Shown: one piece after another, positions 5,451-64,000 of the stretch
How positions within the stretch are numbered: the stretch's first letter is position 1
How the letters are laid out: each line of letters opens with the position of its first letter
Origin: Blastomyces gilchristii SLH14081
Taxonomy: Eukaryota > Ascomycota > Eurotiomycetes > Onygenales > Ajellomycetaceae
Direction: 5' to 3'
Length of the DNA stretch: 64,000 bases
Assembly: GCF_000003855.2 (NCBI RefSeq)
Contig: NW_003101666.1
Location: 1,473,956-1,537,955, forward strand
Notes under the pieces: generated by a model
Told to the model about the DNA's origin: nothing
The model's database searches: none
The model's input: only the letters and a program-made list of their open reading frames with translations
Made by a program: the position numbers and the translations under genes

Positions 5451-6767
5451 ACCTCAGCAGTGCCTCATTGTCAAGAAAGAGTAATCTGCTGACCTTGTAT
5501 AGAAGCGGGGTTCTCTTATCCATCAATCGGATCTTCCTATGATATATTCGAATGATGTCATAGAGTGGTTGGAAACCGGTTCAGACAGGATGAAATCATC
5601 CGCATGGAAGCGATGGGCCGTGTGGAACCGCAGCGGGGCCTTGGCGCTGCCGGGAGTGTGACAATCATGAGAATGAACTTGCAGATCATTATTAAATAAA
5701 TAGATATCAGATTGTCAAATCCTCTCACAGACAGGTGCAAGTAGATGAAGTTCTCACTATTAAGAATATCAATTGCAAGATTGTGATCTGTAGAGTAGAT
5801 AAGATGAAAAAGACATTTAATAAGACTCTTCAATCAATTGAAATCAAATCTATAAAATCTACAGTCACTCAATCATAATAAGATAATTCTATAGAATCTC
5901 AACTTACAGTGGATTCTACACCTTCTAATGAGTATATAGATAATCTTTATGTTATAGATAGATGTAGTGATGATTATTAATTAATTTTTGAAGATTACTA
6001 TATTCAAAATATTTTCTTTACAGTGTGGTTTTCTGTACACTGTGGCGCACTCACTACAGAGAGTGAGTAAGCATGGCACGGTTATAGTATTGTATTGTAC
6101 TCCGTAGAGAATAAACAAATACACCGAAGTCTATTTTAAGAACCAAGCTTAAAACCTTAATAATCCCGCTTTTCAAAATAGTTAATAAGCCATTTTGGCC
6201 TCCACGAACAATCGCGCATTTATTTACTCCTTGCCTTTGAGCCCTTGGATCAGAACACACAGGATTGAGCAGACAAGGGTTACTATGCCTTTGATCCAGG
6301 CATTAGACGCCAGGCTTCTGCGAATTATGAGCTACCACGCCAGCCCGGGAGAAAGGGATCAAGGGTTTGCGGCGCACTCGTGATCGAGCGCTAGGACGGT
6401 AATCCAATAAAATAGGCCTCCGGAGAACACATCGACCACTTGGAACCGGAGGAACCACATTGCAGTATGAGGGGGACGATAACCACCTGCTGCGTGTTCC
6501 TCTGTTTGCCCAACACGATGCGTCACGCAGTGTTGCTTGTGGTTGTCGCAGCCCAAAACCCCCCTCCCCCGTTTTCCCCAGCCGTTGCACTGTGTTTGCT
6601 GTCCAGCATTCATTCTGCAATATATATAAGCGGCGGTTCCTTTTTTTTTTTTTTTCCTCTCTTCTATAGTGTTCGCCTGATTTCAAAAATTCTCGTCATA
6701 TGGAGAGTCTTACCCGCATTGACCATAACATCATAGTTGTTATTAGTAAGATCCCTGCCACTAAAAA
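5451..6767. other. Intergenic junction: AT-rich block to gene island
   Basis: No intact gene seen. It holds a GC-richer island at about 5,500-5,665, more AT-rich sequence to about 6,010, then ordinary composition from about 6,040. Just before the kinase gene are a short CT/T-rich stretch (about 6,637-6,665) and a TATA-like 'atatatata' at about 6,620, plausible core promoter elements for the gene starting at 6,768. Confidence 0.5.
5553..5700 (+). pseudogene. Unidentified coding-like fragment in a GC-richer island
   Basis: A plus-strand frame reads through about 45 codons including 'RFRQDEIIRMEAMGRVEPQR' and ends where AT-rich sequence resumes. CpG is normal here, while both flanks are nearly CpG-free. 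I do not recognise the family. It may be a captured or stranded host-gene fragment; the minus strand is also open across it, so coding status is uncertain. Confidence 0.3.
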
Positions 6768-18497: not shown

Positions 18498-19517
18498 TTT
18501 CTTTTCTCCTAGCCGCTCCGCTTTGCTTTCTTTGTAGGCTCACTGAGAAACCGTATTTTTCAGCTTGGGCTGCTTTGCAAACAGACACATTTCAATTAAC
18601 AGGTCATGACATGCCCGTGAGAGTTCGGCAAATGGCACCCCGACCCCCAAACTCCATAAGAAGAGTGGTTAAATGTATGACTAAAATCCTTGGTCAATGC
18701 TGATCGGGCATATTTGCCTGGCTGTTGGTGTTGAAACCAATTCAAAGCTGTTGAGATTGAACAGAATTTTCCAACTCCCCCTTGGAATAACTAGCAAAAC
18801 ACTGTCAAAATATCCACCTTTCTCAATGATCTTTCAAATATTATTCTATTATTATTCAAATATATGTCTTATATCTTTATTCATTATTCACCAAACTCAT
18901 ATATATTATATCTTTTTTTATTTTTATTTTTATTTTTTTTATACCAGTTTTACAGTCTCGCAGATATATAAGACGATCTACTCTGTCCATCTTCTCAAAC
19001 TATCTATTATTATTATTCTTCCATTTATAGATGTATACAATCAGTGACTTTGATATCTGTCTAATAAAATCAGAATTCTTCTACTTACAAGATTAATAAT
19101 ATATATATACACAGTATTTATATAATATAAATTTCATTTCAGAATTAAATAGTCATTTAAACAATTGTATGAAATCTCACTTCTTGCTGATCTCTTTAAT
19201 CACACAATCTATAAGTTATAGACAGAAGTCGCAATCATCTTTTTCCACTCAGCTTGAATATTATTATTATATTAATCTCTATCTTTGTCATTTATAAATA
19301 TTTCTAGTTACTAGTACATTTATATCAAGCTGTAAACATTTAGAATTTTATATTTCAAGATCTGTCCAGTCAGCAATTATCTGTTATAGCTATAATAATC
19401 AACTCTCAAGTATTCTCTGTGAAAGAGATCTTAGAAAACTCAGTATCTATCTACAGTATTTCATTTTCAAAGATAGAAACAGAATAAATTTCTAAATCTG
19501 TGAATAAATTGATTTCA
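18498..19517. other. Gene-poor region with an AT-rich transposon remnant
   Basis: From 18,498 to about 18,770 ordinary sequence with no gene. From about 18,830 to 19,510 it is very AT-rich and low in CpG, like the flanking transposon blocks. It includes a LINE-tail-like segment near 19,008-19,063. Confidence 0.55.
19008..19063 (-). mobile_element. LINE 3'-end-like remnant
   Basis: 'attattattcttccatttatagatgtatacaatcagtgactttgatatctg' (given in part: ATT repeats, then 'atagatgtataca', then 'agtgactttgatatct') closely resembles the minus-strand LINE tails at 42,548 and 63,255. Similarity fades after about 60 bp, so it is a short remnant or a relative with a different 3' UTR. Confidence 0.4.
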
Positions 19518-26781: not shown

Positions 26782-29700
26782 ATGGACATCCACAGATGTC
26801 GATTTGTAGCATACAACCCGCAGGCAATTAACGCCCTCGCATTCTCTCATCCGCCATCTGCAGAAGCCTCCGGTAGAGGCGTACCTACCCTTCGACTTGC
26901 CATTGGACGAGCCAACGGCGACGTCGAAATATGGAACCCCTTACGCGGAGCTTGGCTACAAGAATCGATTTTACGGGGAGGTAAGGACCGCACCATTGAA
27001 GGCCTTGCATGGACTCAGGACCCTAGTGAAGATGAGGTGGATAGCAGTGGATTCAAAGTCCCCGGGAAGCTGCGATTATTCAGCATTGGTTCTTCGAGCG
27101 TCGTGACAGAATGGAACCTAGAGGAAGGCCGACCTGCCAGACATTCGAGCGGTAGCTTTGGCGAGATCTGGTGTTTGGCTGCGCAACCCCGGTGGAAACC
27201 GACGAAGAAGGATAAGGATGGAAAATTCTTACCGCCTGCTGAGGGGGAGTATACCGGGCAGCACTTGGCGGTGGGTTGTGCAGATGGGTCGATAGTTATT
27301 TTGTCCACAGAGAACGGGGATCTGAGATATCTGCGTACTATGAGACCTTCAACCAAAAAGGCTCGAGTCCTTAGTCTTACGTTCCAGGATCGCAATACTG
27401 CTGTAGCTGGATATGCGGATAGCACCATTCGAATATTCGATATCCGCAGTGGGAAGATTTTGCGAACAGTTTCCATGGGTAAGGGTCCTGTGAAGGGCTC
27501 TAAAGACCTTTTGGTATGGTCCGTGAAATGCTTGCCGGACGGAACTATCATCTCTGGCGACTCTTCTGGTGAAATACGGTTTTGGGACGTGAGGAATTAT
27601 TCCCTAATCCAACGCATACAAGGTCACCAGGCAGATGTGTTGGATATTGCCGTTAGTGCTGATGGAGAATCTGTCATCAGCGGCGGCGCGGACCAAAGGA
27701 CGACCATTTACAAACTAGAGAGCGGCAAGAAAAGTGATAAATCAAGAAGATGGAAAGAAGTGACACATCGTCGATATCATACGCATGATGTCAAAGCTTT
27801 CGCTGTTTATGAGACTAAGGATATAAGCATCGTGGTATCCGGAGGTAAAAAATGCTCAGGTGTTAAAACATATACTTTTCAATTCGTCTCTAACATTTTG
27901 AATTATAGGATTGGACACAATACCCGTCGTCCTTCCGTTGCGCGAATATGGAGCGGAGCATCATCGGAAACTATCGAATCTTCCCCAAGTTCCTCAAGTC
28001 ACCTCATCACCTTCATCCCGTCTCCTTATGAGCTGGTGGGACCGCGAAGTATGTTTGTGGTATATTTCCAAGCGCTCGGGGCCTGGTGAACAGCTGCTAG
28101 ACGGGACTAGCCATAAGCTCGTAGGCAAAGTGTTGGTCCAGGGCGATGAAAGCCTTACATCTGCCGCCTTGTCATCAGATGGGAAGCTTCTCATTGCAGC
28201 AACTGTGGCGGAAGTGAAGATTTTCAGCCTAAAATGGCGAAAGGGAGACAGCAAACCAGCCCTGCGCGTCCAAAAGATCGATCTTCCTCCTGCAGTGGCT
28301 AGGCACGGAGCCAAATCTGCTACTTTCTCACCTGATAGCCAATGGATTTGTCTTGTCCGCCCCAATAACGATATTAGTCTTGCTAGGATTGTATCAGACT
28401 CCGATCCCAAGGAGAATCCGCGCGTGCTATCTGAGCTGATCGATTTGGATCGTATTCCTAGACAAATTCGACACAAAGAAATCTATGGTACGCTTGGTCA
28501 GTATGAACGGAGCGTTCGCTGTGTTGTATTTTCCGAAGATAGTAGGATGCTTGCCTGTGGGGACCTCGGAGGATTTATTGACACGTGGATTTTGGAGGAT
28601 GTTCAAGAATTCGAGAAAACCGGCAAAGGGGTAAAGGTGAACGGAATTGCCTCGTCGGATGATGAATCCTCAGATGACGATGATGCTCCTGTTGTGCTTG
28701 AGGGCCAGCGTTGGATACCGACACCGTCAGAATCACCTATTCCTCGCCTGAAAGCTGGAATTCTACTGCTATCATTCCGGCCGCCAAATCGCTCCCACGT
28801 AAAGACTCTTACCAACGGCACCACCGATTCTCACGTCTCTCGTCCGACTTCGCCTGGTACTGGTCGCCTAATGGTATTGACTGCTGAGCACCAATTATCT
28901 GAATTTGAAGTGATGAAAGGGAAACTGTCTGATTGGTCCCGGAGAAACCCCAAAGCGTACCTACCCAATGAATTCACTATACTTAAGGATCGAGCGATGG
29001 GCGCTATTTGGGATGTAAGCCAGAGCCGGGAACGCCTTTGGTTATACGGCCCTACATGGATGTGGATGTTCGATCTATCGCAAGATTTCCCTTCACCAGA
29101 TGATGTGGTTGAAAGCAAGGATGTCCCTGACACAGCAAAGCAGGGGATGAACAAACGCAAGAGATATGACGAGGAGGGGAAGATGCCGAAGACCAACACT
29201 GGCGCTGGTGATAGAATAGCAGTTTCGAAATCTGATGTAGGCTTAGGAAGGAAAATGCGCAAAATTGTGGGCAGCGACGAAGCAAATGCGCAATGGATAG
29301 ACCTCAAGCGGGAAAGGAGCCGAGATGATGTGGTTGAAGAAGACGAATATGAACAATACAATGAGTCATCAGCAGCAAATGACTCCGTACTAGCACGCCT
29401 TCGACGAGACCGAAGTCTCTCCGAACCAGAGACAAAGGAGGAGGGGAAGGATGAAGACGACGGCAGGGATAAGGAGACAAGCCATCACGGTCAATATCAA
29501 CCCAATGGTATGAGTACCTCCTTTCCCTCTTCATCCATCACCTCCAGCAGGAAATTGCAAGTAGCCTTTGCCGTCGTGATCGACAACAGACCACATGCCA
29601 ATGGGCACAACAAGACGCTGGCGAAGGGGAAGCAAGAACAAAGCCAGAAACCACAAGCGGCTATACCCGAAAAGCCTGAGCGAGAAGAGCAGGCGACCGT

Positions 29701-29971
29701 TGCTACCCAGAACCCGGCTAACCAAGATGCTGTACCAGAGCTTCCATTGCAAGCGAAAGAGACACCGAAAAGCACACCACAGCAACGTCGTTGGTGGCAT
29801 ACACATAAGTATCGAGATGTTCTAGGAATAGTACCACTCGACCAACTGGGTAGTGTATCGGATACAGACCAGGAGTTGAGAGGGGGCGGTTTCAACCTAG
29901 AAGTTGCGGTGGTGGAGCGGCCAATGTGGGAAATAGAGTTGCCTGGGCGGTATGTGCGGGACTACGAGTAG
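26782..29971 (+). CDS. UTP4: U3 snoRNP / t-UTP subunit Utp4 (Cirhin), WD40 protein
   Basis: Two exons, 26782-27844 and 27909-29971, with a 64-bp intron (GTAAAA..CTAAC..TATAG); 1041 residues. Utp4 is part of the t-UTP complex of the small-subunit processome and acts in the nucleolus in pre-rRNA transcription and early 18S processing. The start MDIHRCRFV..AINALAF is the usual Utp4 N-terminus. WD-type repeats run through about residues 15-650, for example 'LRLAIGRANGDVEIWNP', 'LAVGCADGSIVIL', 'TAVAGYADSTIRIFDIRSGK', 'TIISGDSSGEIRFWDVRN', 'SVISGGADQRTTIYKLESG' and 'LLMSWWDREVCLW'. A charged, low-complexity insert (about 780-930) precedes the conserved C-terminus 'KYRDVLGIVPL' and 'VVERPMWEIELPGRYVRDYE'. 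It is longer than yeast Utp4 (776) mostly because of that insert. An upstream in-frame ATG at 26686 is less likely. Confidence 0.95.
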
Positions 29972-41621: not shown

Positions 41622-42547
41622 TTAACTCTCTCTTTTCAGAAGTAATATAAAGTCACAGATATATAGTTCTTATTAGTTAAGAGCTGCTATTTTAAATAAT
41701 ACAGAGCTTAGAGTTCAGATCAGATAATTATAACTAACTTATTTTATAAAATATTATTAGTTACAACTGTGAGATCTCTTATTAAGAATATCTTTAATTT
41801 TTTATTTAAGTTTATTATTCTCTTCTATGATCTCTGATAGCTGACAGTTAAAACTCAGTTAAGAGAGAAATGAATCAGTGATAGTATAATAAAGTAAGCT
41901 TATATAAAAGATGTTATAAATTTCTGATAATATATTAAGATAGTAGTTATAACTGTCTAGAACTTCTATTACTTTATACTTAGTATAACAGTGATTCAGT
42001 ATATAAGATGAGTATATAATTTATATATTCTTAAGATTTAATTATATCAGATCTTCTATCTTATATTACTTAGTAAAATCTTAATAAATATTAACTCAAT
42101 CTTCTTAATCTTATTTAGTACTTATTATAAAAACTTCTACTAAGTCACAGATATTTTAAAGCTTTATTACTATATTATCAGTGATCTGAATCAGACTGCA
42201 GAGATTCAGTGTGAACTGTATAATCTTTAGAAAATTTAACATCTTCATGTAATAACTGTGTATAAGAAAGAATAAGCTTATATCTATTAAAATAGTATCT
42301 TAATCATTGATAGTGATCTCTGTATATAGAAGAAGATTATATTAATTATTCTATAAATAATTATAGAACTTATAAAGATAATTCTTTACAGTCTGAATTA
42401 TTTATTCTAATACATTTTTAATTTTAGAGTGATAGATAGTTAATAAATAGTATATATTCTTAAGAACTTAACAGATTCTTATTCAGAGAGTACTTATAAA
42501 TTAATAATCTTAATCTAATACTATAGATCTCAGTAATTTATACATCT

Positions 42548-43467
42548 TATTATTATTATTATTATTCTTCAATTATAGATGTATGTAGTTAGAGACTATG
42601 ACATTTATCTGAGAACTTTTAGTTCTCAGAGTTTTTCCTATATCTATAAAGTTAACTATTATACATTTATAAATTTCAGATATATAAAATCAGAAAATTC
42701 CAGCTCAGAATATAAAAACTGTTTATAAATTACAGTATTATTAACATCTTCTGATACTTTGAAATCATTTAATAATATCATGATAAAAGAAAAGAGAACA
42801 CAGTCTTAAAGATGACATATTAAATAGATAGATAGAAAAGAATAAAAAAAGAAAAAGTAAAGAGAGCTTATACAAATTAAAATTATTAAAGATAGTAAAT
42901 AGCTGTTTAACAGACTATATCTAATTAATTTTCACCTCTTCATATTCAGATATTTCTGAATTCAGCTGTTTTCTTATAGCTGCTTGAGTTCTGATAGAAA
43001 GTCTATTAGATACTTAATTCCTGTCTCAGTTAAGAATAAGAACCTTATATTTAATTAAGTTAAATTATACTTCTTCTTCAATTTGACTCTGAGACTATTA
43101 TATAATGCACAATGCATTATAATATACTTAGAATTTTCATTTACATTGCAGAATGAGTATTCTGTTGAATCAAATCTATCATTAAATCTTTGTATATAAG
43201 ATTTGAAATACTCATGTTCTAGTTTCAGCTGAATTATAGATGAGAATATTTTCTTTTTACATTTAATTGAACAAGATTTCCACTTAGATTTTGTCTCAAA
43301 TCTTGAATAATGTATACTCTTCTTTTGTTTCTGCCACCTTTTATTTCACTTGTTTAAACAAGATTCTTTTATCTTTCTCTTTATAAAAGACTAGAACACT
43401 GTTTTTTGAATAGATCTGCTTAATTCTGAACTCTTTTTTGCTGCTGAATCAGTCAATTCATTGCCAT
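42548..43467 (-). mobile_element. 5'-truncated LINE (Tad-like) inserted in E0
   Basis: 920 bp, minus strand, flanked by a 13-bp duplication 'aatttatacatct' (42535-42547 and 43468-43480). The 3' end at 42,548 is an (AAT)n tail on minus. The sequence matches the 3' part of the LINE segment at 46,566-47,972, including the end of the RNase H domain (GNELTDSAA-like) and the C-terminal region. 5' truncation plus target duplication is the classic product of target-primed reverse transcription. Confidence 0.85.
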
Positions 43468-45814
43468 AATTTATACATCTAATAGAATAGACTCTGTAGA
43501 AAGACTTTAGTAACTTATTCAGTATTTATTTTATTATAAGATTTTAATATTATATTTTTAATTAATTAATTTATAATAATCAGAATATTTTTATAACTCT
43601 TACTCTTAGAGAGATTAATAACAAAGTTAATTACTATATTTTATTAAATTCTATTAGAGATATTAAGTGATTTCAGTAGATCTTTTCTACAGTTCTTTTA
43701 CCAGATAATAAAAGAATAATAGTTACAGTCTCAGATAAAATATCTGATAGTGTTTAATATCTCAGATCAGTAGAACTCTTAAGAGATTATTTAATATAGT
43801 TACTTATAATCTGAGTAATTAGTTATATACAAATCATGCATCTCTTATATTATCTGAGTGTGTAAGAATTCAGAGTAAGAGACTCAATGTTCTTTATAGA
43901 ATTGTAGAGTATTATTATCATTAATTAAGTATTCTGAGAGGTCAGTTCTTATATATAGTTCTGAGAGAAATCAGAGTACTTCTTGATATACTACTTTAAT
44001 AAGTATTTCAAGAAGTTTATCAGTTTGAACTATTATATATCATAATTCATTCAGTGTAGATATAGAAGAAGTTAAGATATCAGTATTAGTATTAGCATTA
44101 ATGTCAGTGACAGTTCAGAGAGAAGATATTCTAATTAAAGAAGTGTATATAGTGTCATAAGTTATTTTATCTTAATTAACTAGTATCTTCAAATCTAAGA
44201 GCTGATGTTCTCAGTTTATTTAATAAGTATCTATTATATTAAAAGATATATCTTACTCTTGTTATAAGAGAACATCTATCATCAAGTTCTGACTGCTGAA
44301 ATGATAGTGTATAGTGAAATAAAAACAGCTTAATAGCTCAGATTATTGTATCTGACATTCAGTAAGCTTATAGATAATAGTGAAGTATTTAAGATTCTTA
44401 TAATCTGTGATTATTTTAAATTTAAAGATACTTCAGAGTTCAGAATCTCATTCTTCTAAACAGTGTATAATTATAAGAAGTTTCTTATCATAGATCTTAT
44501 AATTGTATTCAGCAGAACTTAGTTTCTTAAATATGAAGATGCATAATTATAAGACATCTTTATTATTATATTATAATATAACTTCTTCTGTGATATAGTC
44601 AGAGAAGTTAACTTTAATAACTATTTTATAATCAGAAATAAATATTATTAACAGAGAAGTATTAATGAATATCTTCTTTATCTGTGTAAATGCAGCTTCA
44701 GTGTCTACTAATTACTGAAATACTGAGTTCTTCTTGATAAGTTCTGTAAGTGATCTTATAATATCTGAGAAGTTTTATATAAATTATTAATAAAAATTAG
44801 TAAATCTGATGAAGCTTTATATATCTTTCACAGTATATGAAGCTTCTCATTTAAGAATAATGAAGATTTTCTCAGAATTCATTTAAATTTTCTTATTAGC
44901 TTCTATGATAAAACCTAGATATTTTATACTCTTGACTTTGAAATCATACTTATTAATATCTATTAATAGTTTTACTTCTTATAATTATTGTAATATTTTC
45001 TGTAAATATTTCTGATATTTCTTTCTGAATTTATCAGTGAAGATGAGAATGTTATTTAGATATATAGATACAAACTTATTAAGAAAATCTTAAAGTACTT
45101 AGTTAATATACTTCTGAAATATACTGAGAGTGTTAGTTAGTTCAAAGAGTGTAACTACTTATTTAAAGAGATTATAACATGTTCAGAATACTGTAAGTTA
45201 TTTATCTTCTTCAGTGATACAAATCTTCTGAAATGCAGTAATGATATCTAACTTTATAAATTATTAAGCTTATCTGATATATGTTAGAGTTTCATTAATA
45301 AGAGATAAGAAATAATAATCTTTCTTTACTAATCTATTCAGATTTTAATAGTTTATACAGAATTAGAGTTCTTTATCTAATTTCTTTACAAAGAGAATAG
45401 AAGCTGCAGCAGAAGAGTTATTAATATATATAAATTTCTTATTCAATAGATTATTAAGTATCTTTCAAATAAGAAGAAGTTTATCTTGAGATATATTATA
45501 AAGAGAGTCTTATAGTGACTCAGAGTCTTTATCATTCTTCTTTTTTAACTTGATACTGTGATTCACTTCTAAGTCTTATAAGAGAAGTATATTTTTAATA
45601 TTATCTTATCAGAAGATATCTAGATATTCATAATATTATTAAGAGGATTTTGTATAAGAATCTGTTATTATAGTACAGAATAACTTCTCTAAAGCTTTCT
45701 TAATATTGATCAGACTGATAAAATAGATTACTTTATAATTCTACTATCAGTGACTTTATTGACAGTCTCATTAATAACTTCTTTTTCAGAGTATTTTATA
45801 AGTATTGACAGAGA

Positions 45815-45895
45815 GCCAGCGTGGCCCAGTTGGTAAGACTGGTAACCAAGGCCGCACACATTAGGGGTGCGTGGGTTCGAATCCCACCGCTGGCA
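45815..45895 (+). ncRNA. tRNA-like head with intact Pol III A and B boxes
   Basis: Perfect 7-bp acceptor stem (GCCAGCG with CGCTGGC) followed by A and then CC. A box TGGCCCAGTTGG (45822-45833) fits TRGCNNAGYNGG; B box GGTTCGAATCC (45874-45884) fits GGTTCGANTCC. The T arm is perfect (GTGGG-TTCGAAT-CCCAC). D and anticodon regions do not fold normally; instead TTGGT/ACCAA and GCAC/GTGC stems form. At 81 nt with an odd middle, it is unlikely to be a functional tRNA and is better read as a SINE-type promoter head. Confidence 0.75.
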
Positions 45896-46565
45896 CCTGC
45901 CACTTCTTACCCATGAAAGCCCCCATGTAATAGGGGCTGAGCCTAATTAGTAAGGCTTGGTGCGGGGTAGAACTCCCTACTGCAAGCCAAGCCACTAGTT
46001 AAGCGAGATCCTGCGAACACCCACCAGGGCCGGCATGGGGTGCCAATGTCCCACTATCCTACTGTGCACCTGTCAGGGTTCTAACGATATAGAGCCAGCC
46101 TAATGTAGTGGTTATACACTACTTAAGCGAGTCCCTAACTAGGGCTGTCATCGGAGCCTAGCTCCCCCCCAAATACAGGGAATGATTTTGAAAACCACCC
46201 GACTAGCAGGCCTAGACGCGCATCTAGGCCCTAGGCAGGGCACCCTGATAGGCTAGAGCCTGCAAGCTCCCTGCCAAGCCCTAATACTGGCAGGGAGGAC
46301 TGCAGTCATCGAGCCTATGGTTAGTCCCTAACACGGGGCGAGGCCACGACGGCTGATTGGTAGGCCTATGGGCATCTAATGGGGCCGAGATCAGCAACCG
46401 GAAGCTTGGTGTGTACCAAGTGGGCGGTGGCAGCCACTAACTAACGCCCCTGGAAATTAGTGGCTGGCCTGAGAGGATGGACGCGGTGGTTGGTTAATTA
46501 TAGGGGGTTAAATGTAATTAGCTTAAGATGCATCCTGCGGGTGGCTAGCACCTGTAGTCTCTTAT
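45896..46565 (+). ncRNA. GC-rich, hairpin-dense body of the composite retroposon
   Basis: About 670 bp of normal, CpG-containing sequence within an otherwise CpG-free block. No long ORF. Several perfect short hairpins are visible: GGCCTAGA/TCTAGGCC, CTTGGT/ACCAAG with a GTGT loop, CTGCCA/TGGCAG, CCACTAA/TTAGTGG, TAGTG/CACTA and AGGCT/AGCCT. The density suggests a structured RNA (or former 5' UTR), but I cannot assign it to a known RNA family. Confidence 0.5.
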
Positions 46566-47590
46566 AGACTTACAAATAAGTGAACTATCAAAAGAGAAAG
46601 AATATGAACAGTATTTGAAGAGAATTTCTACAATCAATATAAAAGACTCTATTCTGATTTATTCAGATGACTCAAAAAATGAGAACTTAAATAGATTAGA
46701 CACAGACATTGCTTATACTGAAGATAATATTAATTTTATCTCAGATTTCTGAAATCTAGACTCTGAATGTGAAGTCTTTGATACAGAACTATTTATAATA
46801 GTAAAAGCTTTCAAACTTATTGAAATAAAATCTTATAAAAGAGGAAATTATTTGAAAGAGATATGAATATTCTCTGATAGTCAAGCTGCTTTAAAAAGAC
46901 TTAGAAATAGTCAGATTCATAATAATCAAATCAATCTTGAACTGATCTTAAACTCTGTTTTAAAAATTCAAAAGAGAAGAATATCAAAGCTGATAATTTA
47001 TCTGCACTAAGTTCCTGCTTATATGAATATTCATGACAATGAATTGACTGATTCAGCTGTAAAAAAGAGTGCAGAATTAAGCAGATCTATTCAAAAAATT
47101 ATGTCCTGGTCTTTTATAAGAAGAAAAATAAAAGAATCTTGTTTAGACAAGTGAAATGAAAGCTGATAGAAATAAAAGAAGAGTATACATTATTCAAGAT
47201 TTGAAACAAAACCCAAGTGAAAATCTTGTTTAATTAAATGTAAAAAGAAAATATTCTCATCTATAATACAGCTGAAACTAGGACATGGCTATTTCAAATC
47301 TTATATACAAAGATTTAATGATAGATTTAACTCAATAGAATGCTCATTCTGCAATATAAATGAGAATTCTGAGTATATTGTAATACACTGTGCATTACAT
47401 AATAGTCTCAGAGTCAGATTAAAAGAGAAGTATGATTTAAATCAATTAAATATAAGATTCTTATTCTCAACTGAGACAGAAATTAAATACTTAATAGACT
47501 TTCTATCAGAAACTCAAGCAGCTACAAGAAAATGACTAAATTCAGAATTATCTGAATATGAAGAGAAGAAAATCAATCAGATATAGTCTG
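46566..47590 (+). pseudogene. LINE RNase H domain and C-terminal zinc finger (decayed)
   Basis: The main frame, interrupted mainly by TGA where Trp is expected, reads a Tad/I-type LINE RNase H domain with its four acidic positions: Asp in 'ILIYSDDS' (46660-46674), Glu in 'DTELF' (46786-46788), Asp in 'FSDSQAALKRL' (46876-46878) and Asp in 'HDNELTDSAVKK' (about 47,033). Then comes 'KLGHGYFKSYIQRFNDRF' and a C-x2-C..H-x4-C finger (CSFC..HC, from 47341). This is the usual C-terminal end of Tad-clade ORF2. Endonuclease and RT are absent from this copy. Confidence 0.85.
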
Positions 47591-49128
47591 TTAAAACAGC
47601 TATACACTCTCTTTTAATAATTTGTTTTGTTATAGTCTCTCTTTACTTTATCTTTTTCTTTATCTTTTTCTTTCAATTTCTTTCTATCTATCTGTTTAAT
47701 GTGTCTATCTTTGAGACTGTGTTCTTTTTCTCTTTTCTTTTATCATGATATTGTCAAATGATTTCAAAGTATCAAAAGATGTTAAAACACTGCAATTTGT
47801 AAACAGTTTTTGTATTCTGGGCTGGAATTTTCTGATTTTGCATATCTGAAATTGATGAATGTATAATAGTTAACTTTACAGACATAGAAAAAACCCTGAG
47901 AACTAAAGTTCTCAGGTAGATGTCATAGTCTCTGACTGCATACATCTATAATTGAAGAATAATAATAATAATAGTATTGACAGAGATCTGTGTAAGATTC
48001 ATAGTCTTATGAATATTATCTTTATGAATTCTATTATTATTAGAGAATATTAAGCTTCTGTTTTAAGTATTTAATAAGATGTCTTATTCAGATAGTCAGA
48101 CAAGTTCTAGTATAAAATTATAGTCAAGATTATTAACTTTGTATATATAAGTATCTTCATATTGATATTCTCTGATATCTATGTTTAGTTTTATTATATA
48201 ACAAGTGTGAATGTCTTTTGAATCATCAAATCCTGCAAGAAGTCAGGGTTTTAATATGAGAATACACGGAAAGATTATAATATCTTATCACTGAAGATTT
48301 AATCATTGCATAGTAATATAGACTGCTGTCTATCATAGCTTTCATATTATATATATTATTAATTACAGTAGATACAAGAATCACATTCATTATTATTTTC
48401 TCTTTAAATTATTATCATTCAATCTCTTCAAGCTTCTGTTTATGAATTTCAATAGAAGTCAATCTTTTCCCTGTTTCATCAGAGTATTCTCATAGTTATC
48501 TTTCAAATCTTTCTTCAATGAAATGTGATTGATACAAACTACTGATATTAATCTTTCTTTTGAATAAGAGAATATATAGACTAATCAGTAGTTGAAAGTG
48601 ATATATTCTGATTAGTTATAATTAATACATATCTCTTATTAATATCAATCAGTGACTTCTTCAGAAGTGATATCAGAAACTCAGAACTCTGTTCAGACAG
48701 TAGAAACTCTTGCTTATGTATAGATATTTAAGTTCACTCAATTCATAATATATGCATTATCATTCTTCAGTGCAGATATATGAGTAACTGAGATATAATA
48801 TCTTCTATCACTGTTCTGTATACTCTTAAGCTTAATTAAATAATCATTTAATATTCAGAGTTGTATGTAGAAGCCTTTATATATTAAGTCTTTATTTACA
48901 CTTATAGAAGTCTGTAAGAGTTTGAAAGTTAATGATTTCTTAAGCATACTAATCTTTATTTAATTCTTTCAAGATTGACTATCTACTTTTAGAATCTTGA
49001 TATTGAAGTCAGAAATAAATGTTATAAGAGAAGTGTTTCTCTGTCAAACACTCTGTAATTAATCTAATACTTTCTATTGCATAGCAGTGTCTCAGAACAG
49101 AATATCAAGATATTTGATAGTATTATCA

Positions 49129-63254: not shown

Positions 63255-64000
63255 ATTATTATTATTATTATTATTCTTCAATTATAGATGTATACAGTCA
63301 GAGACTATGACATCTACCTGAGAACTTTTAGTTCTCAGGGTTTTTCCTATATCTGTAAAGTTAACTATTATACATTCATCAATTTCAGATATGCAAAATC
63401 AGAAAATTCCAGATCAGAATACAAAACCTGTTTACAAATTGCAGTGTTTTAACATCTTCTGATACTTTGAAATCATTTGACAATATCATGACAAAGGAAA
63501 AGAGAACACAGTCTTAAAGATAGACACATTAAATAGATAGATAGAAAGGAATTGAAAGAAAAAGATAAAGTAAAGAGAGACTGTAATAAAACAAATTATT
63601 AAAAGATAGTATATAGCTGTTTTAACAGACTATATCTGATTGATTTCCTTCTCTTCATATTCAGATAATTCTGAATTTAATCATTTTCTTATAGCTGCTT
63701 GAGTTTCTGATAGAAAGTCTATTAAGTATTTAATTCCTGTCTCAGTTGAGAATAAGAATCTCATATTTAATTGATTTAGATTATACTTCTCTTTCAATCT
63801 GGCTCTGAGACTATTGTATAATGCATAGTGCATTACAATATACTCAGGATTCTCATTTGCATTGCAGAATGAGTATTCTATTGAGTCAAATCTATCATCA
63901 AATCTTTGTATATAAGATTTGAAATAGCCATGTCCTAGTTTCAGCTGTATTATAGATGAGAATATTTTCTTTTTACATTTAATTGAACAAGATTTTCACT
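63255..64000 (-). mobile_element. LINE 3' part inserted in E2 (runs off the window)
   Basis: Minus-strand LINE beginning at its (AAT)n tail (63,255-63,275) and continuing with the same 3' UTR and C-terminal coding sequence as 46,566-47,972 and 42,548-43,467. The 5' end and the second target duplication lie beyond 64,000. Confidence 0.85.

Follow-up and report, generated by a model that had tools for sequence, protein, structure and literature searches.

Truncated LINE inserts in Blastomyces gilchristii that probably carry copies of a separate tRNA-headed RNA at their 5' ends

The locus

The stretch considered here, a window of 64,000 nucleotides from the genome of Blastomyces gilchristii SLH14081 (contig NW_003101666.1; C17:1473956-1537955), contains an inserted element in which a head with a tRNA-like beginning is followed by the 3' part of a Tad-like long interspersed nuclear element (LINE). 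With a probability that we put at about 0.84, this element is one of more than 200 separately made chimeras, each formed at the RNA level between a LINE and a separate donor RNA. The inserted unit occupies 45815-47972 and is bracketed by perfect 14-bp duplications; its parts are collected in Table 1. Two paralogous sequences within the window are empty at the corresponding site: the joined flanks match 62433-61609 at 83% over 829 bp and 51827-51329 at 84% over 503 bp, in both cases across the point of insertion. The duplication, the tRNA-like head with its A- and B-box-like sequences, the GC-rich body, the LINE end with an (AAT)n tail and both empty sites had been recognized in the initial annotation, and all were recovered. 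The join, placed there at about 46,565, lies instead between 46557 and 46558, and the TC that follows it can be assigned to either side.

The acceptor and T arms of the tRNA-like domain are regular, and its D/anticodon region is irregular. Nothing but tRNA exceeds its gathering score in an Rfam scan of 45500-48300, and ARAGORN called no tRNA gene in this head, nor in the copies L009-L048 described below. Two short stretches of the domain, TGGCCCAGTTGG and GGTTCGAATCC, resemble what we take to be the consensuses of the A and B boxes, and may constitute an RNA polymerase III (Pol III) promoter. The longest stop-free stretch of the head in the three forward frames is 38 codons, and 45815-46557 folds better than shuffled sequences (z -2.85 with 20 shuffles, -3.1 with 60). 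The LINE part is entered at about point 4797 of an element of approximately 6.2 kb; its RNase H frame, read directly, is interrupted by stops, and the window copy therefore encodes no working enzyme.

Table 1. Features of the inserted unit and of LINE and head pieces used for comparison. Positions are those of the window unless a stretch is named.
Feature	Position	Strand	Basis or remark
Left target-site duplication	45801-45814		Exact 14-mer AGTATTGACAGAGA; 2 occurrences in the whole window
tRNA-like domain, 5' end of donor RNA copy	45815-45895	+	Rfam tRNA 34.3 bits; gathering score 29
A-box-like TGGCCCAGTTGG, possible Pol III promoter	45822-45833	+	Letters read directly
B-box-like GGTTCGAATCC, possible Pol III promoter	45874-45884	+	Letters read directly
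GC-rich structured body of donor RNA copy	45896-46557	+	No long reading frame; constant across 40 copies
9-bp terminal hairpin	46535-46557	+	Final base of hairpin is final base of head; ...TAG end
5'-truncated Tad-like LINE 3' part, RNase H region broken	46558-47972	+	Aligned to LINE copies L019 and L048
(AAT)n tail	47960-47972	+	End of LINE part
Right target-site duplication	47973-47986		Exact 14-mer AGTATTGACAGAGA; second of the 2 window occurrences
Headless 5'-truncated LINE copy	42548-43466	-	Own 14-bp duplication, 43467-43480 and 42534-42547
Headless LINE piece	L023 3640-3860		Own 14-bp duplication
Heavily decayed head	L015 3497-3611		38.8 bits

The GC content of the window is 46.6% between 6 and 40 kb and 26.2% in the AT block when the head is left out, in agreement with the bimodal GC composition described for Blastomyces in the accessible part of PMC4595289. 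A frame at 27902-29971 is UTP4, with 86% identity to a Blastomyces parvus record in a protein search. Two further LINE 3' pieces are present: one at 63257-64000 (minus strand), ended by the window boundary, and one of about 60 bp at 18999-19058 (minus strand) in the GC-rich part, for which no duplication was found.

A family of heads joined to LINE copies

The genome searched for heads and LINE patterns amounts to 74.8 Mb in 75 contigs. With up to three mismatches allowed, the 3' end of the head was found at 224 places, its 5' end at 124 and an internal stretch at 185. These three counts are lower bounds, because one head at least (that of L015 in Table 1) has decayed heavily. The LINE 3' end was found at 2009 places; visible heads are about 11% of that number, which is a ratio between two pattern counts and not a copy-by-copy linkage. 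A first look gave 238 head candidates, 40 of which were scored, and the best-scoring 40 of the 238 were read (the L009-L048 series). The initial annotation had proposed that several copies joined to LINE 3' ends at the same point as in the window (about 46,565), each with its own target duplication, would distinguish a real family from a one-off chimera. The element is not unique. All 40 copies begin at the same base, at GCCAG, and all finish at ...TAG, the foot of the hairpin; a LINE of one kind follows the head directly and in the same orientation in every one. The LINE is entered at 33 distinct points spread over its approximately 6.2 kb; the shortest LINE part is about 0.3 kb long, and the longest exceeds 4.8 kb. 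Duplications of 12-17 bp flank 35 of the 40, and in 32 of these 35 they are flush with the head. Six other LINE pieces were examined, of which two are headless with 14-bp duplications of their own and one has the decayed head.

Two unusual arrangements of the head may be mentioned here. In L029, an insertion of about 5.3 kb, within which the L029 chimera lies, divides another head copy on the minus strand (1-264 and 5523-5648), a case of repeated nesting of these head-LINE elements. At C8:1007565-1008677, a head that matches the 5' and 3' patterns exactly is some 390 bp above the usual length; the extra length may be either an insertion or a sign of an intron-bearing donor gene. At four other places, C1:6696258(+), C3:5243796(-), C4:3296977(-) and C7:1470946(-), an exact head 5' end is present with no head 3' end among the matches listed.

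The junction and the route of joining

The letters at the join are not random. TC directly follows the head in 26 of 40 copies and at 20 of the 33 points, where 6.9% would be expected from the LINE copy L019 (p 1.5e-15); genome-wide, TC is next in 87 of 145 exact head ends. The first LINE letter is a pyrimidine at 31 of 32 points (L048 left out). Upstream of the join, the LINE letters that are absent from the product are A at position -3 in 26 of 32 cases and at -2 and -1 in 20 of 32 each, against 40% A expected; it should be noted that these letters were taken from other LINE copies (L019 and L048) and not from the chimeras' own templates. AAA|TC is thus a junction motif, with a probable 2-nt overlap. 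That it might be a site of the LINE endonuclease was considered and rejected, because insertion target sites do not resemble it. To control for the motif, LINE 5' ends without a head were considered, but there are two clear cases (the two headless entries of Table 1), which are too few.

We lean towards template jumping, from LINE RNA to the donor RNA during reverse transcription, as the route by which the two parts are joined. The alternative that survives best, although we hold it to be distinctly less probable, is that ligation comes first: the LINE RNA would be cut at AAA|UC, a ligase of the tRNA-splicing type would add the 3' end of the donor, and the chimeric RNA would then be reverse transcribed. 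The motif includes LINE letters missing from the product, as a cleavage site would. The 5' region of the LINE is also avoided, as would follow if an intact, capped 5' end were no substrate for the ligase: its 5'-most sequence, as read in L048, has 854 matching places, and only one of the 40 chimeras, L048 itself, reaches it. Ligation and template switching are both offered as routes for mammalian U6/LINE-1 chimeras in the accessible text of PMC13174262. On the other hand, the TC overlap is more simply explained by pairing of the complementary DNA (cDNA) with the tail of the donor. Whatever the route, chimeras rarely reach the LINE 5' region, and the RNA copy therefore appears to be added mostly where copying stalled or where the LINE RNA was broken.

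Probable separate fusions

Three transversion sites and one deletion divide the 40 heads into types ACG (18), TAC (14), AAC (3), AAG (2) and a deletion type (3), to the last of which the window copy belongs. Head types and LINE points are shuffled with respect to each other. The TAC heads of L013, L015, L017 and L019 differ by only 4-7 bases in the pairs listed, and their LINE points are 4797, 5890, 1669 and 1609. Conversely, point 4797 is found with a deletion-type head (the window copy) and with a TAC head, point 4574 with one deletion-type and two ACG heads across two LINE subfamilies, and point 5812 with TAC heads (L028, L041) and, in L037, with an ACG head whose LINE is divergent; the identical joint must therefore have been made more than once. 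The proposal of the initial annotation that the element moved as one unit holds for the insertion of each copy, but not for the spread of the family.

These observations bear on the idea of a composite in which the fused head and LINE are transcribed from the Pol III-type boxes of the head and then retrotransposed. The box-like sequences themselves speak for it, as do five LINE points common to two or three copies and two pairs, L015/L020 and L028/L041, that share both point and head type. Against it stand the 33 points in 40 copies and the fact that the remaining shared points differ in head type or LINE subfamily, and we regard it as very improbable. The same low probability attaches to a very large tRNA-derived short interspersed nuclear element (SINE) that borrows LINE 3' ends. 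Such an element would account for the tRNA-like head, GC-rich body, LINE end and duplications; the copies read, however, have no fixed LINE tail and no 3' tail of their own, only LINE parts of differing length, and none of the 40 heads is free of LINE (about 180 other head places being unread). An internally deleted LINE of which the head is the ordinary 5' region is less probable still. The head of L048 does abut the 5'-most LINE sequence read, but the LINE 5' region has 854 places against 224 head ends, the heads elsewhere lie flush against scattered LINE points, and of the 41 LINE 5'-region places listed on contig C1, none, when compared by eye, directly follows a head listed for that contig. 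LINE copies moreover decay as AT-rich repeats, whereas the heads remain GC-rich. Finally, trans-splicing of the head to LINE RNA in the manner of a spliced leader would agree with a 5' piece that stays constant while the 3' pieces vary, and with the TAG end of the head, but AG, which an acceptor site needs, precedes the join in the LINE at 1 of 31 points, and the idea can practically be set aside. Amongst the three readings offered in the initial annotation it is accordingly the template-switch chimera that the copies support, and neither the internally deleted LINE nor the large SINE.

Several observations weigh against the reading as separate RNA-level fusions, or against parts of it. The choice of the best-scoring 40 is biased toward complete heads. 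Five of the 40 (L025, L032, L036, L043 and L048) have no duplication of at least 9 bp within the stretch read. No donor gene was found; the 40 places most similar to the window head are all joined to a LINE. L015 and L020 agree in both point and head type, and the L015 head is nearest to that of L020, although their LINE parts, with 6 differences, are farther apart than those of L015 and L013, with 1. L028 and L041 likewise share point and type, and here the LINE parts are nearest (3 differences); a few re-mobilized units are therefore possible. As to pairing with UC, 7 of the 33 points agree with the U alone and 6 with neither letter, and there is no excess over the LINE at position +3, where T occurs at 16 of 32 points, compared with T after TC at 251 of 450 LINE sites.

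The state of the LINE templates

Endonuclease (PF14529), reverse transcriptase (PF00078) and RNase H (PF00075) domains are found in pieces of L019, L017 and L031. The set is consistent with the Tad clade, a name that we retain from the initial annotation. In the heads, C-to-T change, counted on both strands, affects 15.4% of cells at CpG, 7.1% at CpC, 0.5% at CpA and 0.1% at CpT. The pattern resembles that of repeat-induced point mutation (RIP) in an unusual context, CpG and CpC being hit and CpA spared; classical RIP favours CpA (PMC2621366, in the part available). In the AT block of the window (42001-64000), the observed/expected ratio is 0.08 for CpG, about 0.25 for CpC and 1.07 for CpA.

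The two parts are not equally decayed. Of the 38 chimeras measured, the 11 with the least mutated heads (at most 4.1%) have LINE parts with only 4-33 CC, GG or CG per kb; the corresponding figures are 234 for a head and 168 for the gene region. The head of L019 has decayed by 4.1%, yet its LINE frame contains 12 TGA and 12 TAA/TAG in 579 codons, and across chimeras the extent of decay in the head correlates weakly with that in the LINE (rho -0.28, p 0.09). The simplest reading would be that the templates were transcripts of already decayed LINE copies, used in trans, while the source of the donor stayed intact. Alternatively, the two halves may have mutated unequally after insertion.

The same decay turns tryptophan codons into stops. 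At 15 tryptophan sites of the LINE, in L010, L017, L019, L031 and others, there are 79 TGG, 247 TGA, 30 TAA/TAG and 1 AGG cells, and in L031 a frame of 579 codons that is otherwise open has TGA at 13 tryptophan positions, which mimics a code in which TGA is read as tryptophan. Such a code was rejected: the mutation pattern itself converts TGG to TGA, the least decayed long copies have TGG at most or half of these sites (L017, 10 TGG and 5 TGA; L010, 8 and 7), and matches to the actin family in the genome are mostly without internal TGA (1 TGA in 19 matches).

The putative donor RNA and a proposed mechanism

Both ends of the head are constant in the copies read, as those of a full-length RNA copy would be, and the donor is probably a separate RNA, structured and about 743 nt long, that begins with a tRNA-like fold. 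Its source seems to have been spared hypermutation and so is probably functional. The head types suggest two or more donor loci, and one of these loci may have stepped through ACG-AAG-AAC-TAC. A source gene ending in GTAGTC-TTTTT, with a terminator of five Ts, was sought; the two places with this sequence, L015 and L020, owe their Ts to the LINE.

The mechanism that we propose starts from what is read in the copies: the donor ends are fixed and the LINE points vary, duplications flank the inserts, independent events recur, and the junction has its motif. The Tad-like LINE would be copied by target-primed reverse transcription, often from the transcript of an already decayed element and hence by an enzyme acting in trans. 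Copying would halt early, preferentially at AAA|UC in the LINE RNA, through breakage or pausing. The end of the cDNA, usually ...GA-3', would then transfer to the 3' end of the separate structured RNA, where a terminal hairpin at ...UAG is probably followed by a short UC tail that could pair with GA. Copying would proceed to the donor 5' end, which is position 1 of the tRNA-like fold, and the insertion would be sealed with a 12-17-bp duplication. In this scheme we infer the UC pairing, the Pol III origin, the action in trans and the order of joining.

A more ambitious version, which is tentative and on the whole doubtful, would have the donor as an undescribed, long, tRNA-headed RNA that Pol III makes from at least two host genes spared by the hypermutation, with a 3' hairpin and UC tail that capture cDNA ends at AAA|UC of truncated LINE RNA. 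About one LINE insertion in ten would be capped in this way, as a regular, sequence-guided completion of failed target-primed reverse transcription and not as an accident.

If separate RNA-level fusion is correct, LINE inserts that were incompletely copied have often been finished with a full copy of an unrelated tRNA-headed RNA, and the window element is not a one-off. The heads then point to the existence of a structured RNA that begins like a tRNA and has not been described, and suggest that LINE proteins in this fungus copied the transcripts of dead LINEs. A template jump and RNA ligation can be tested against each other, because the donor ends are fixed, the joins follow the AAA|TC motif and the chimeras avoid the LINE 5' region.

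Comparison with known systems

The initial annotation knew of no description of such an arrangement. None was found for this group of fungi in the open-access papers searched; the accessible part of PMC4595289 names Tad1 once in Blastomyces, as a minor repeat, and the main text of PMC11540331, also on Blastomyces, contains none of the whole words LINE, Tad1, SINE or chimeric. The principle, however, is published: LINE chimerism of the template-switch type is described for MINE in Magnaporthe (PMC2104539) and for U6/LINE-1 in mammals (PMC13174262), according to the parts of these articles available.

Tad-clade LINEs share the endonuclease, reverse transcriptase and RNase H domains seen in the relatives of the window copy, which is itself a broken 3' part. 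tRNA-derived SINEs share the tRNA-like head with A- and B-box-like sequences, mobilization by a LINE, and duplications; unlike them, the Blastomyces chimeras read have no common 3' tail, and their LINE part varies in length from copy to copy and can include almost the entire element. In the mammalian U6/LINE-1 chimeras, a truncated LINE is preceded by a full-length U6 in sense orientation. The donors of the mammalian U6, U3 and tRNA chimeras are known small RNAs, and the tRNA parts are mostly of half length and antisense, whereas here a sense tRNA-like sequence begins a 743-nt RNA (the mammalian statements resting on the available text of PMC13174262).

There is close likeness also to MINE (WEIRD-MGL of Magnaporthe grisea), as described in the accessible part of PMC2104539. 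Both have a copy of a non-coding RNA, full-length in MINE and probably so here, 5' of a 5'-truncated LINE in the same orientation, recurrent join points, short duplications (10-20 bp in MINE) and no solo donor copy found (no solo WEIRD in Magnaporthe). The features that characterize MINE recur in Blastomyces as LINE 5' truncation at varying points (33 among 40 copies), shared orientation with a direct join (40 of 40) and flanking repeats (35 of 40). The MINE donor is an RNA of 1.1 kb, as against a head of about 743 nt here, and 31 MINEs stand against 224 head places; the MINE motif is GCC*A/U, microhomology not being reported in that part of the account, whereas here there is AAA|TC with a probable 2-nt overlap. 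The Blastomyces family would thus add to MINE a second example, among fungi, of LINEs systematically made chimeric at the 5' end, with copies enough to learn the rules of the junction, and what is new relative to the known systems is the tRNA-like donor, the scale, the AAA|TC junction motif and the probable 2-nt overlap.

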